Virus record (IMG/VR): IMGVR_UViG_3300032299_000851
Location: 1-29,745 of that record
Reading direction: 5' to 3' (one strand)
Source of the DNA: a virus
DNA length: 29,745 bases
A program made the translations under genes and the position numbers. Positions 3,987 through 20,761 of this stretch are shown here, piece after piece. Numbering within the stretch: the first letter of the stretch is position 1; every line of letters begins with the position of its first letter. Under the pieces are notes generated by a model. That model was not told the DNA's origin. It saw only the letters and a program-made list of their open reading frames with translations, and ran no database searches.

Positions 3987-4253
3987 ATGTCGATTTCCGT
4001 CGCCGTCGGAACTGCTACCGGAACCGCGTCTCTTGCGTTCGATTGTCGAGCGGAGGTATGCCTCCTCTCGTTTAACAATCATTCGGGAGATCCTCTCTTT
4101 ATCGGGGGAGCCGCAGTCACGACTTCGACCGGATATCGAATTGCAGCCGGAGCGATCGCGCAAATCACGATTTACAACGGGGATAAACTTTACGTCGTTT
4201 CGCAGGGAGCCCACCGCGCGTACGATATCCTCCATACGCAGCCGAACCCGTGA
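3987..4253 (+). CDS. small beta-rich protein of head module
   Basis: 88 residues. The sequence looks all-beta (VAVGTATGTASL, then CLLSFNNHSGDPLFIGG, then AAGAIAQITIYNGDKLYVVS), with alternating hydrophobic residues and an FIGGAAVTT...GYRIAAG pattern similar to small virion proteins in other phages. Starts three bases after the portal stop, and its stop overlaps the GTG of the protease gene. A head accessory or decoration protein is a reasonable guess from position and fold type, but I do not recognise the family with certainty. Confidence 0.65.
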   Translation: MSISVAVGTATGTASLAFDCRAEVCLLSFNNHSGDPLFIGGAAVTTSTGYRIAAGAIAQITIYNGDKLYVVSQGAHRAYDILHTQPNP

Positions 4254-6031
4254 GCTCGATTGTTATCGACGTCGACGGGACGATCGATCTAAACGGGGAG
4301 CCGAACGAACCGCTCGTCGCTGCACTTAATCGACGCGTCGCCGAGGGCGATCGAATCGTCGTCGTCTCCTCCCGTCAAGAGTCCCGACTCCGAGAGACGA
4401 AATTCTTCCTCGACGATGCGGGGCTCGGGTATTCCGAGATCTACCTTTCGGACTTCCCCGAAGGGCCGAACGCGGGGAATGCGTTCAAGTCGTATAAAGT
4501 TTTTAAGCTAATCGAGGACGGCTACGAGATCGACGAGGCGATCGATAATGACGCCGAGATCCGTCGCATCTATCGGGGAATGGGGATCGACGCGTTTACG
4601 GCGGACGAGTACCTCGACAATAACTCGCGTTCGACCGAGGGTCGAGCGATCGATCCGAACGGCTACGAGCCGAACGCAGCGATGCGCGAAGAAGCCGAAC
4701 GCGGTCTCGAATGGCGGCGTGAATACAACCGAGGCGGGACGCTTGTCGGCGTCGCGCGAGCTCGCGATATCGCCGCAGGGAAGAGACTCCCCGCGGATAC
4801 CGTCCTCCGTATGCGATCATATTTCGCACGTCACGAAGTCGATAAAGAGGCGCAGGGATTCCGACCGGGGGAAGACGGCTTCCCGTCGGCGGGTAGAATT
4901 GCGTGGGCATTGTGGGGAGGAGATCCCGCGCAAGCGTGGGTCGAGTCTATTATCGAATCATTCTCCGAGGAGAAGTCAACGAATAAGACGGGAGACGAAA
5001 TGGGAATCGAGTTCCGAACCGCTACGGCGCACCTACGCGCAGTCGACCCGGAGGGAATGACGTTCGAGGGGTACGCTTCGCTTTTCGATTCGCCGAGCGG
5101 CGAAGGAGTCGATCCCGAGATCGTCAAGAAGGGCGCATTCTCCCGAAGCCTCGCCGCTGCGCGACGCGGCGAATGGGACGTCCGCGCGTATCAGGATCAC
5201 GACCCGAAGCTTCTCCTCGGTACGACGAAGTCGGGAACGCTTGAACTTGAAGAAAACGACAAGGGCCTCCTCGCCCGTATCCGTCTTAACCCGAAGATCT
5301 CTTTTCACCGTGACCTCGCCGAGCTCGTCCGTACGATGCAATCGTCCCTCGGAATGAGCTTCGGTTTTTATTCAACTCGCGCGAATACGATTAACGATGA
5401 CGGCGTCCGCGAACTGCGCGACGTAAAGCTCGTCGAAGTCTCCGCGTTGACGGGGCTCCAACCGTACTACCCGGGAACGCTCTCCCTCGTCGCCGTCCGA
5501 TCCCTCGCGGATAAAGCGGGCGTCGATACGACCGAACTCCGAGACGCACTCTCCGCGATGCTCGCAGGGAAACTGCGCGGGAATCACGCGAAGTCGATTA
5601 CTGCGGCTCTCGAAGTCTCGCTCCGAGACGTCGAAGGAGTCCCGACGAAGTTCCCCGAAGATGCGGAGAAGCCCGTCGAGAAGATCGAGGAGCCCGTCGT
5701 CGAGGACGAGAAGAAGCCCGAGGAGAAGCGTTCAGTCGCAGACGATCTCGGGATCGTCGTCTCGGATCTCTCCGAAGCCGTCGCCGCTGCGGACGCAGGG
5801 CTCGCGACTGCGGAGCAGCTCGCCCTTATCGTCACCGCTGCGAAAGGTGTTATCGACGAGGCCGCCGCGGAGCCCGTCGAGCTCGACGTAATGCCGGGCG
5901 AGATGGCTCCGTCCGAATATGTCGACGAGCACGAGGGCGGCGAGAAGATTAAAATCGAGATCGAGGTAACCGTTCCACGATCCATTCGTGAGAAGGAGCT
6001 CGAACTCCTCGATCTTTCGCGTAAGATTTAA
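4250..6031 (+). CDS. HAD domain - conserved domain - prohead protease fusion
   Basis: 593 residues with at least three modules. Residues 1-125 look like a HAD-type phosphatase (DVDGT at 7-11, VVSSRQ as motif II, DNDAEIRRIY as motif III). Residues about 150-237 form a domain with RGGTLVGVARARDIA and GFPSAGRIAWALWGGD, known from the N-termini of phage head proteins. From about residue 251 it is an S78 prohead protease with FEGYASLFDS, probable catalytic H317 (QDHDP) and S370 (GMSFGF). The Glu/Lys-rich C-terminal 150 residues look like a scaffold segment. A second, in-frame start at 5000 could make the protease alone. GTG start overlaps the previous stop. Confidence 0.9.
   Translation: MSSIVIDVDGTIDLNGEPNEPLVAALNRRVAEGDRIVVVSSRQESRLRETKFFLDDAGLGYSEIYLSDFPEGPNAGNAFKSYKVFKLIEDGYEIDEAIDNDAEIRRIYRGMGIDAFTADEYLDNNSRSTEGRAIDPNGYEPNAAMREEAERGLEWRREYNRGGTLVGVARARDIAAGKRLPADTVLRMRSYFARHEVDKEAQGFRPGEDGFPSAGRIAWALWGGDPAQAWVESIIESFSEEKSTNKTGDEMGIEFRTATAHLRAVDPEGMTFEGYASLFDSPSGEGVDPEIVKKGAFSRSLAAARRGEWDVRAYQDHDPKLLLGTTKSGTLELEENDKGLLARIRLNPKISFHRDLAELVRTMQSSLGMSFGFYSTRANTINDDGVRELRDVKLVEVSALTGLQPYYPGTLSLVAVRSLADKAGVDTTELRDALSAMLAGKLRGNHAKSITAALEVSLRDVEGVPTKFPEDAEKPVEKIEEPVVEDEKKPEEKRSVADDLGIVVSDLSEAVAAADAGLATAEQLALIVTAAKGVIDEAAAEPVELDVMPGEMAPSEYVDEHEGGEKIKIEIEVTVPRSIREKELELLDLSRKI
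5000..6031 (+). CDS. possible internal-start prohead protease/scaffold product
   Basis: Within the fusion gene, ATG 5000 is preceded by GGGAG about 6 bases upstream and begins MGIEFRTATAHLRAVDPEG, which looks like the natural N-terminus of free-standing prohead proteases. It would yield a 343-residue protease with scaffold tail, without the HAD and GRIAW domains. The short linker before it (EEKSTNKTGDE) is a typical low-complexity joint. Whether both forms are made is inferred, not shown. Confidence 0.4.
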   Translation: MGIEFRTATAHLRAVDPEGMTFEGYASLFDSPSGEGVDPEIVKKGAFSRSLAAARRGEWDVRAYQDHDPKLLLGTTKSGTLELEENDKGLLARIRLNPKISFHRDLAELVRTMQSSLGMSFGFYSTRANTINDDGVRELRDVKLVEVSALTGLQPYYPGTLSLVAVRSLADKAGVDTTELRDALSAMLAGKLRGNHAKSITAALEVSLRDVEGVPTKFPEDAEKPVEKIEEPVVEDEKKPEEKRSVADDLGIVVSDLSEAVAAADAGLATAEQLALIVTAAKGVIDEAAAEPVELDVMPGEMAPSEYVDEHEGGEKIKIEIEVTVPRSIREKELELLDLSRKI

Positions 6032-17847: not shown

Positions 17848-19458
17848 ATGCGCAACAAATACGGTACGGACGAAGTCGTCTTTCAGACTCTTACCGGAAC
17901 GCTGCAATCCGACGACGGCTCTCCGCTTCTCTCGACGTCTTCCGACGGCGGGACGGCGTACGCAATCGGCGACGCACTCTCCGCAGGGATCTATTCCGGC
18001 ATTCAAAACGGAAACCTTTCCGCGCCTCCGCAAGCGGTCGGAAGTGCCGATCCGATTTCCGACTCGAATCCGCTTCCGTACTTTACGTTCGTCGACGAAT
18101 CGTCGGGGAGGATTACCGCATTCGCCGTCGAGGATTCCCTGCAAGCGAACGGATTCTCGATTCGCTTTCTCGCGATCGGCGCGCAGTCGGGCGACCGCGT
18201 CTACCTTGAACGCAGGGTCTCGGCTCCGAGCTCGCGCGCGCAGTCGTACGTTTATTCGGCTCGCGGTGCGTTTACTGCGGCCTCGAATACTGCGGGGTAT
18301 TCCGCGTTCGTCGAAACGCAGTATTTAAAAGCCGACGGGACGACGACGACGGGCGCAGCGAATACCGCGACGCAAGCCGGAACGGTAATCCAAGCGTACA
18401 ACTCGACCGCGCTCGAACTCGTCTCGTATCCTGCGGCGGGCGGCGCAGTCCCTTCGGACGGTGCGTCGATTCTCTTCCGAACGGGAATCACCTTCTCGAC
18501 CGCAGTCGCGGGGACGGTCTCGATCGATCTCGTCGAAATGCGTCTCGTGCGAGGGACGACGGTCGTCCCGTTCGTCGACCAATCGTTCCCCGGAGAGTCG
18601 GGCGGAATCGTCGCGCAGACGGGGCGAACGATGATCCTTCACTCGAACTCGCTCGGGACTGCGGGCTTTAATCCGAAGATCGAACTCTCGACGAATACGG
18701 GGACGATTTATTTAAACGCCGCGGGAACGATCACGGGAGGCGGGACTCCGACGAGCGGCGATATCGAGCTCCGAACGAAAGACGGCGGGTACGTTTACTT
18801 CGGCGCAGGAACCGCGAACGCGGACGTCCGCCTATGGGTCAACAATGCGAACGAGCTACGAACCGACGATAGGTTTATCGTCGGAGATCGAACCTCGGCG
18901 AGCATTAACCAAATTGACTCGCCGGGGGTACTTCTTGACCCGACCTCGGGCTTCGCGTGGATCGATCGAAGTCCGATTGATGCGGTTACCGATTCTTCGC
19001 TTTTCTTAACGTCGGGCTTCTTGAATGCGAACCTACAAATGGTTCGCTTCTTCCGAAAGATTACGTCGGGCGGAACGGCCCTAACTGCGACGGGGCATAT
19101 CCTCGTCGCAAATAACTCGACGACCGCTCCTTCCTTCGCTGCGGGTTCCGACTATCGGTTGAAGACGGATATCCGTTTAGCTTCCGAAGAGATCGACTTC
19201 GTCGAGAAGATCGACGCACTCCGACCCGTCCTCTTCACGAACCGAGAGTCGGGAGATAAAGATCTCCTCGGCTTTATCGCGCACGAAGTCGCACCGGTTA
19301 TCCCCGAAGCGGTCGAGGGCGAGAAAGACGCAGTCGACGACGAGGGTAATCCCGCGTATCAGTCACTCGCCGCGGCTAAGATGATTCCGTACCTCGTCGG
19401 TGCGGTGCGTGATCTCTCCGCGCGCATTAAGGAACTCGAAAGGAACGCCGCAGAATGA
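17848..19458 (+). CDS. tail fibre with S74 self-cleaving chaperone
   Basis: 536 residues. The long N-terminal part is beta-rich and probably the receptor-binding fibre (repeats of GTxYLNAAGTI type). The C-terminal about 100 residues form an intramolecular chaperone of the peptidase S74 family. The cleavage motif GSDYRLKTDI gives the Ser-Lys dyad S434 and K439, and DLLGFIAHEVAPVIPEAV and MIPYLVGAVRDL complete the domain, ending in a coiled coil. Cleavage before S434 would release a fibre of 433 residues. GGGGAGGG ribosome site. Confidence 0.88.
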   Translation: MRNKYGTDEVVFQTLTGTLQSDDGSPLLSTSSDGGTAYAIGDALSAGIYSGIQNGNLSAPPQAVGSADPISDSNPLPYFTFVDESSGRITAFAVEDSLQANGFSIRFLAIGAQSGDRVYLERRVSAPSSRAQSYVYSARGAFTAASNTAGYSAFVETQYLKADGTTTTGAANTATQAGTVIQAYNSTALELVSYPAAGGAVPSDGASILFRTGITFSTAVAGTVSIDLVEMRLVRGTTVVPFVDQSFPGESGGIVAQTGRTMILHSNSLGTAGFNPKIELSTNTGTIYLNAAGTITGGGTPTSGDIELRTKDGGYVYFGAGTANADVRLWVNNANELRTDDRFIVGDRTSASINQIDSPGVLLDPTSGFAWIDRSPIDAVTDSSLFLTSGFLNANLQMVRFFRKITSGGTALTATGHILVANNSTTAPSFAAGSDYRLKTDIRLASEEIDFVEKIDALRPVLFTNRESGDKDLLGFIAHEVAPVIPEAVEGEKDAVDDEGNPAYQSLAAAKMIPYLVGAVRDLSARIKELERNAAE

Positions 19459-19628
19459 CCCGCTCGCAAGTCGACGCAATCCTCGACCGTCTCGACGCCC
19501 ATTCGCAAAAGCTCGACGAGGTTCGTTCCGACGTCGATAAAATCAAGGGCGGTCTTTTGGTCATTGGCGCGGCTCTCGGTGCAGGGCTTCTCGGAGCGTT
19601 AATGCAACTCTTCGGGGCGGCTAATTAA
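19455..19628 (+). CDS. XhlA-like small membrane protein
   Basis: 57 residues, start overlapping the fibre stop (ATGA). The N-terminal half is an amphipathic coiled coil (VDAILDRLDAHSQKLDEV), and the C-terminal half a single transmembrane helix (LLVIGAALGAGLLGALMQLF). This is the layout of XhlA-type haemolysin/holin-associated proteins, which sit just upstream of the endolysin. It likely anchors to the membrane and aids lysis. A holin role of its own is possible. Confidence 0.75.
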   Translation: MTRSQVDAILDRLDAHSQKLDEVRSDVDKIKGGLLVIGAALGAGLLGALMQLFGAAN

Positions 19629-19630
19629 CG

Positions 19631-20761
19631 ATGCCTCTTAAAGTCTTCTCGCAGCTTCCGCACGCCGAGAATGGACTTATCGACGACTGCGGCCTCGCTG
19701 CACTCGCTATGACGATTCACCATTCGTCGAAGGGTGCGGTCTCTCCCGGTGTAAAAGCCGCGATCGACGCGGCGACGAAAGCGGGTCGGATCGATCGCTT
19801 CGGCAAGTCCGACCCGACGACGTTCGCCCATATGATCGCAGCGGGGAAGATCCTCGGCGCGACGCTCGTCCCTGCGAGCTCGTGGAAGATCGCAGTCTCC
19901 GAGATGCGCAAGGGGAAAGGCGCGATCGTCGCCCTCTCCGCGCATAACGCGATTCCCGCGCACGCTCTCTCGGCGTGGCAGCGGTCGAATATGCGGCGTC
20001 GTCCGGGTCACTCGTACCGTCACGCCGTCGCCCTCGCGATCGTCGACGGAAAGTTTTACCTCGCCGATCCGACGCTCTCGGGCAAGGGGAAGGAAGCCGA
20101 GGGAATCGAGATCACCGAGGGCGAAGCCCGCACCCTTGCGCATTGGGGGCTTGACCCCGTCAACGCGAAGCGTCCTCGTCCTATGTTGTGGATTGTGACC
20201 GTCAAGATTCCGAAGACGGCTCCCGCTCCGGTGCTCGCACCCGACGAGGCGATCGACCCGATCGTCGAACTACCGTCTCCGAAGCCCGTAGCGGCTGCGA
20301 AAGCGGTCGAGCCCATCATTACGCCAAAACCTACGGTCGAAGCCTCTACGAGCCGCGTTCCCCGCTCTACGGCGAAATCGGGGTATCCGAGCCCGCGAGA
20401 GATTCTCGGTCGGGTAAATTGGAACGAGGCGGGGAAGCTCCTCGCCCGAGGCTTGGAAGAGACAAGGGGTCGAACGATGGTTGAACGGATTAAATGGTTA
20501 TTCGTGAGCACCGGCGCAGGAACGGCTCTTCTCGAAGCCGCACGCGTCGGGCTCTCGACCGGAATCGCGGTAATGCTCGCGACGGGTGCGCCAATCCTCG
20601 ATATGACGGCGCAGGATTTTCGAACGGTGCTCTCTGCGATCGTCGCGTCTTCACTAACCGTGATCGCCGCGGCCCTCAATCCCGAGGATAAGCGGTACGG
20701 CGTCGGGAAAGTCCAAGCCGTCCGAGCCGCGGAGAAGCGAAGCCGCCGAGCCGCGAGGTAG
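19631..20761 (+). CDS. C39-like cysteine peptidase endolysin fused to holin
   Basis: 376 residues. Residues 1-195 resemble papain-fold C39-like peptidases: C20 in IDDCGLAALAM, H131 in HSYRHAVALAI and D146 in YLADP form a catalytic triad in the right order. Residues about 200-270 are a Pro/Ala-rich linker. Residues 283-376 contain two hydrophobic helices (LLEAARVGLSTGIAVMLAT and VLSAIVASSLTVIAAAL) and the motif NPEDKRYGVGK seen in actinophage holins. An in-frame ATG at 20477 with its own ribosome site probably yields the holin alone. The peptidase would cut peptide bridges of the wall; this activity is inferred. Confidence 0.8.
   Translation: MPLKVFSQLPHAENGLIDDCGLAALAMTIHHSSKGAVSPGVKAAIDAATKAGRIDRFGKSDPTTFAHMIAAGKILGATLVPASSWKIAVSEMRKGKGAIVALSAHNAIPAHALSAWQRSNMRRRPGHSYRHAVALAIVDGKFYLADPTLSGKGKEAEGIEITEGEARTLAHWGLDPVNAKRPRPMLWIVTVKIPKTAPAPVLAPDEAIDPIVELPSPKPVAAAKAVEPIITPKPTVEASTSRVPRSTAKSGYPSPREILGRVNWNEAGKLLARGLEETRGRTMVERIKWLFVSTGAGTALLEAARVGLSTGIAVMLATGAPILDMTAQDFRTVLSAIVASSLTVIAAALNPEDKRYGVGKVQAVRAAEKRSRRAAR
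20477..20761 (+). CDS. nested holin from internal start
   Basis: 94 residues in the same frame as the endolysin. ATG 20477 is preceded by AAGGGG (20464-20469), 7 bases upstream, an obvious internal ribosome site. The product begins MVERIKWLFVSTG, has two transmembrane helices and ends in NPEDKRYGVGK plus a basic tail, matching class II-like holins of actinophages in size and topology. The full-length gene may therefore encode both a membrane-tethered lysin and a free holin. Translation from this start is predicted, not demonstrated. Confidence 0.6.
   Translation: MVERIKWLFVSTGAGTALLEAARVGLSTGIAVMLATGAPILDMTAQDFRTVLSAIVASSLTVIAAALNPEDKRYGVGKVQAVRAAEKRSRRAAR

Follow-up and report, generated by a model that had tools for sequence, protein, structure and literature searches.

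Phage lysis in its textbook form depends on a pair of genes, one encoding a holin and the other an endolysin. The locus that we examine here raises the question of whether the two can be joined in a single gene and, if they are, whether the holin could still be made on its own. It lies in a virus record whose 29,745 bases, the whole stretch of DNA analysed (hereafter, the window), contain terminase, portal, head protease, major head protein, tape measure and tail-fibre genes. Immediately upstream of the open reading frame (ORF) at 19631-20761 on the plus strand, which a preliminary description had read as an endolysin and a holin in one frame, are a tail-fibre (S74) gene and a gene for a 57-aa protein with a single transmembrane (TM) helix. 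Elsewhere in the window, the ORF at 4250-6031 is an unusual joined one: it encodes a head maturation protease (Peptidase_S78), and the N-terminal ~130 residues show matches to both a polynucleotide-kinase and a phosphoheptose-isomerase PHROG.

The single-frame joining is real in the sequence. The ORF at 19631-20761 is open throughout its 376 codons, and its 376-aa product couples a C39-like cysteine-peptidase fold to a 94-residue, two-helix, holin-like module. The features of the locus are as follows.

19455..19628, plus strand: gene of the 57-aa protein, whose N-terminus resembles a coiled coil and whose C-terminus has one TM helix.
19631..20206, plus strand: C39-like/papain-fold cysteine peptidase domain, residues 1-192 (AlphaFold2, Foldseek, Cys20/His131).
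20207..20392, plus strand: Pro/Ala-rich flexible linker, residues 193-254 (pLDDT <50 for much of 209-249).
20393..20461, plus strand: short helical segment, residues 255-277, '..GRVNW..AGKLLARGL', found in fused proteins (AlphaFold2).
20464-20469, plus strand: AAGGGG, Shine-Dalgarno (SD)-like, 7 nt before the internal ATG (duplex energy -6.9 kcal/mol).
20477..20761, plus strand: internal ORF with an in-frame ATG, the 94-aa two-helix holin-like module, homologous to the stand-alone gene of relatives.
20516..20584, plus strand: hydrophobic helix 1, module residues 14-36 (AlphaFold2, hydropathy).
20609..20677, plus strand: hydrophobic helix 2, module residues 45-67 (AlphaFold2, hydropathy).

An AlphaFold2 model of the entire protein, built on a 91-sequence alignment, had a mean pLDDT of 82, and its N-terminal papain/C39-like domain was predicted with confidence (pLDDT about 90+). 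The preliminary description had listed C20, H131 and D146 for this domain. The fold and the first two residues are borne out, C20 and H131 being invariant in 91/91 aligned homologues; D146 does not hold as a conserved catalytic residue, since the expected Asp is present in only 19/91 homologues and is replaced by Cys in 72/91. The substituted Cys sits in a motif, ACPTRSGKG. In the curated families the peptidase had no Pfam match, and the one PHROG match (E 0.94) covered only the C-terminus of the fused protein. The N-terminal signal-arrest-release TM segment that marks SAR endolysins is absent; the strongest hydrophobic 19-residue windows all start at residues 298-334, within the C-terminal module, and membership of that class was therefore rejected.

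We presume that the domain is the enzyme of a putative endolysin, which would cleave the cell wall. The peptidase could instead serve in processing, in the virion or in an interaction with the host, with a membrane protein of some other function as its anchor or partner. Such a role would agree with the lack of any curated endolysin or holin family match, with the Cys at residue 146 in most homologues and with some of the solved relatives, since the Foldseek matches of the domain include bacteriocin-processing C39 peptidases and staphopain (C39-like 3erv and the PCAT1 and ComA peptidase domains were matched at E 1e-4 to 5e-3). However, the top fold match is PeiR, a pseudomurein endoisopeptidase (8z4h, E 1.1e-4) that cuts pseudomurein, and a further match is to a protein named 'Endolysin' from a Synechococcus phage. 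Moreover, a tail-fibre gene precedes the gene and small TM genes are its neighbours, the window proteins that were scanned included no further recognisable wall hydrolase, and the membrane partner matches proteins named 'Holin'. We consequently regard a function outside lysis as improbable.

Beyond the peptidase, the model shows a linker that is disordered over about residues 205-250 and then four helices (264-277, 283-294, 297-318 and 327-349), so that the term two-helix module is correct for the hydrophobic core of this C-terminal part. The loop between the two hydrophobic helices is acidic (net -2.2) and both flanks are net-positive, which suggests an N-in/C-in hairpin with both ends of the module in the cytoplasm. 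The layout of class II holins (a short protein with two TM helices, N-in/C-in by the positive-inside rule) fits the module as a prediction only. The sequence NPEDKRYGVGK is indeed present, followed by a basic tail, but we could not confirm its earlier attribution to actinophage holins; the 'Holin' proteins that the module matches come from uncultured phages (BFVD entries A0A6J5R152 and A0A6J7X250, 46-49% identity). Its similarity to r1t-type holins was not significant (rank 11, E 1.9 in BFVD), neither Pfam nor PHROG yielded a holin family for it, and sequence searches of the PDB with either domain gave nothing convincing. Among the GenBank phages, tblastn retrieved neither a relative of the peptidase nor one of the fused protein, and in 50,697 phage records the module had only distant matches and the enzyme none. 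Only the membrane protein has a clear relative there, and a short one: a hypothetical protein of the lake-derived Actinomycetia phage DSL-LC01, which a shorter relative of the module (L077 type) matches at 47%.

The product of the small upstream gene, which resembles XhlA/BhlA only in its appearance, is a second candidate for a membrane protein of lysis; its Pfam/PHROG matches were weak and below the cutoff. Small TM genes precede the fusion gene in many loci, their types differing from one locus to another, and the holin role may thus be shared. A near-identical copy of the 57-aa gene occupies the same place in two relatives, L001 and L236, even though the fused proteins of L236 and the window are otherwise only 32-39% identical; to judge from these sequences, this suggests a recent exchange of single lysis genes.

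Five scans of IMG/VR for relatives of the fused gene gave 97 distinct genes of the fused kind and 52 distinct pairs of the split kind; for a further 6 peptidases no partner was recognised. In the split pairs the peptidase has its own stop, and the membrane gene usually begins 7-26 nt after it with a strong SD ahead. The existence of relatives with a stop between the two parts might be taken to mean that the window has simply lost one through an assembly or sequencing artefact. This we reject, its probability being negligible: the 97 fused genes come from many metagenomes, and one more (L251) comes from a MAG contig of independent assembly, whose assignment to a Rhodobacteraceae bin is weak evidence of the host. 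Fused proteins, furthermore, have linker segments of their own, and a CxxCG tail is found in 34/52 split peptidases and in no fused protein. Because so many distinct fused genes also exist, the stop between the parts is a real alternative state and no sign of error; the fusion is confirmed as natural, and not the result of a frameshift or a sequencing mistake. Measured by HMM-to-HMM distance, the linkers of the 97 genes span 82-127 residues, and a frame that has stayed open across ~100 codons in all of them indicates that the fusion product is kept. The phages that carry the fused gene are a large uncultured group, probably of freshwater habitats.

Two further observations concern the region between the domains. 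The split peptidases (L003, L004, L011, L093 and others) often end in a CPxCGGTG tail that resembles a zinc knuckle. In linkers of the L113/L111 type, some 84-95 codons ahead of the internal start, a short stretch (~GTA CAG/GAG GCA CCT AGG) has undergone very little synonymous change (observed/expected 0.07-0.14), unlike its surroundings, and possibly marks an RNA element or a recombination site.

The split homologues also strengthen the idea of an internal start, because their stand-alone membrane gene begins precisely where the internal ATG of the fused gene lies. As the preliminary description had noted, ATG 20477 is in frame, specifies 94 residues and has AAGGGG 7 nt ahead of it. A start codon occupies this position in 95/97 fused genes (85 ATG, 10 GTG); two related ones, L237 and L239, have no ATG, GTG or TTG at the junction. 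The background of ATG in the linkers is low (13/2915 codons, 0.45%). Every Val that replaces the start Met is encoded by GTG, although linker Val codons are evenly spread (GTG 91, GTA 83, GTC 78, GTT 66); this is a modest point, since a single mutation separates GTG from ATG and a group of close relatives is among the ten cases. In an alignment of 30 representatives anchored on the start, Met is present in 90% and GTG supplies the rest, with no other position within 20 residues exceeding 77%. From the start to an N[TS]G motif the distance is not constant (9, 10, 13 and 14) and agrees with that in the stand-alone genes, the codon thus keeping to the start and not to the domain. For a Met of structural importance a fixed distance would be expected, which a start codon does not require, and thus the internal one behaves as a start codon.

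The context of the codon is likewise that of a start. The median SD energy at the internal start is -7.0 (n=30), as against -3.0 at other in-frame ATGs (n=117; p 5e-10), -5.9 at the fused gene's own start and -7.9 at stand-alone starts. Local mRNA structure is weak (-5.9 vs a background of -11.2, p 4e-9; gene starts, -6.1), a difference that partly follows the lower local GC (47% vs 59%). Shuffling of synonymous codons revealed no selection for the SD beyond that on the amino acids used (Fisher p 0.68), and there was no dip in the synonymous rate at the SD (ratio 0.90, rank 146/414); both tests have low power in Lys/Glu/Gly codons and say little, because such a run is purine-rich under almost any choice of codon.

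Could the internal start nonetheless be a relic of a split ancestor, with only the fused protein of any consequence, its module anchoring the lysin while a different gene, for instance 19455-19628, encodes the holin? In Hafnia phage Enc34 (PMC8943055) and phage AP1 (PMC8879335), endolysins that have a TM domain at the C-terminus act in this manner; the frequency of small upstream TM genes, the two fused genes that lack the start and the negative synonymous tests are all compatible with it. Yet a relic should decay, and this codon has been kept in all but two genes while neighbouring linker positions turned over; its only replacement is GTG, and in SD strength and accessibility alike it is on a par with real starts. 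We accordingly judge the relic explanation unlikely, and consider it probable that lysin and holin are naturally fused at this locus and that internal initiation has been conserved, so that a tethered lysin and a free holin would both be made. This was the essence of the preliminary interpretation, which is supported in part: the preserved start speaks for it, and conservation lends no support to a catalytic role of D146.

Relative to the window protein, L008 is 32% identical in the peptidase and 64% in the linker plus holin, whereas L040 shows the reverse (59% and 28%); by such comparisons, the peptidase and membrane modules move independently. A single fused clade is rejected on the tree of the membrane module (p-AU 0.0025) but not on that of the peptidase (p-AU 0.57); a single origin of the fusion is thus opposed by the first tree and not rejected by the second. 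Since the two results differ, we claim repeated change or module swapping and place no number on the fusions.

Internal in-frame starts are common in endolysins, being predicted in about half of those from phages of Gram-positive bacteria (PMC9430671). Two-polypeptide endolysins such as Ms6 LysA/Lys241, CTP1L, phi2638A and LysIME-EF1 (PMC3111421, PMC4777826, PMC12203907, PMC7098653, PMC9430671) share with our locus an in-frame internal start with a ribosome-binding site, its conservation in relatives and a common stop. The short products reported for them, however, either are soluble parts that bind the cell wall or combine a second catalytic domain with a binding domain, whereas the putative short product here is a two-helix holin-like membrane protein, elsewhere the product of a separate gene. 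The endolysins of the Enc34/M4Lys type (PMC8943055, PMC7143992) and LysAP of AP1 (PMC8879335) likewise place a C-terminal TM domain, of two helices in Enc34, behind an N-terminal enzyme; as far as the accessible text of these reports extends, no internal start that frees the TM part and no stand-alone TM homologue is described. The Enc34 enzyme is an unrelated lysozyme-fold domain (PHA02564) from a phage of Gram-negative hosts; as the fold in our protein is papain/C39-like, we rejected membership of that type. Class II holins, and the r1t-type holins of actinophages, resemble the module in having two hydrophobic helices, a short acidic loop, net-positive flanks, a size of about 70-130 aa and a position in the lysis cassette, and some relatives of the module bear the same name, 'Holin'; the module differs in being fused to an enzyme and in its lack of a Pfam match and of significant r1t-type similarity. 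The dual-start holin S105/S107 of lambda (discussed in PMC9671378) is also one gene with two starts and two membrane products, but only two residues separate its forms, whereas those predicted here differ by the linker and the complete enzyme domain. In the open-licence literature we found no report of a holin-like module being freed by an internal start, and such a start appears to be undescribed there.

In the mechanism that we propose, the endolysin, a C39-like cysteine peptidase, would have been fused to a class-II-type two-helix holin-like protein whose old start survived in frame. The full-length product would hold the peptidase on a flexible linker of ~60 residues, tethered at the inner face of the membrane, and the short product from ATG 20477 would be a free 94-residue holin-like protein and the main pore former. 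The predicted N-in/C-in hairpin would keep the tethered enzyme cytoplasmic until the membrane module co-assembles and opens; the enzyme would then be freed or become exposed where the lesion has formed. Assembly could, in addition, be slowed or adjusted by the bulk of the long form, as it is slowed in lambda by the long holin isoform. It is possible, and we put it forward tentatively, that the locus is a single-gene lysis device in which the long form is a holin subunit bearing its own enzyme and co-assembling with the short form, the ratio of the two starts setting both the time of lysis and the delivery of the enzyme; phages might then have switched between fused and split states, or exchanged modules, without losing the start.

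Dozens of distinct genes of uncultured phages thus join holin and endolysin, the holin apparently still separately translatable as far as sequence can tell. They point to a widespread, unannotated family of lysins and holins that no Pfam or PHROG match names, and their membrane module would add a third class to the known internal-start endolysins. L237 and L239, without the internal start, offer a natural way to learn whether the fused form is sufficient by itself, and the fused genes as a whole are a natural system in which to ask whether the coupling of enzyme and pore alters the timing of lysis.
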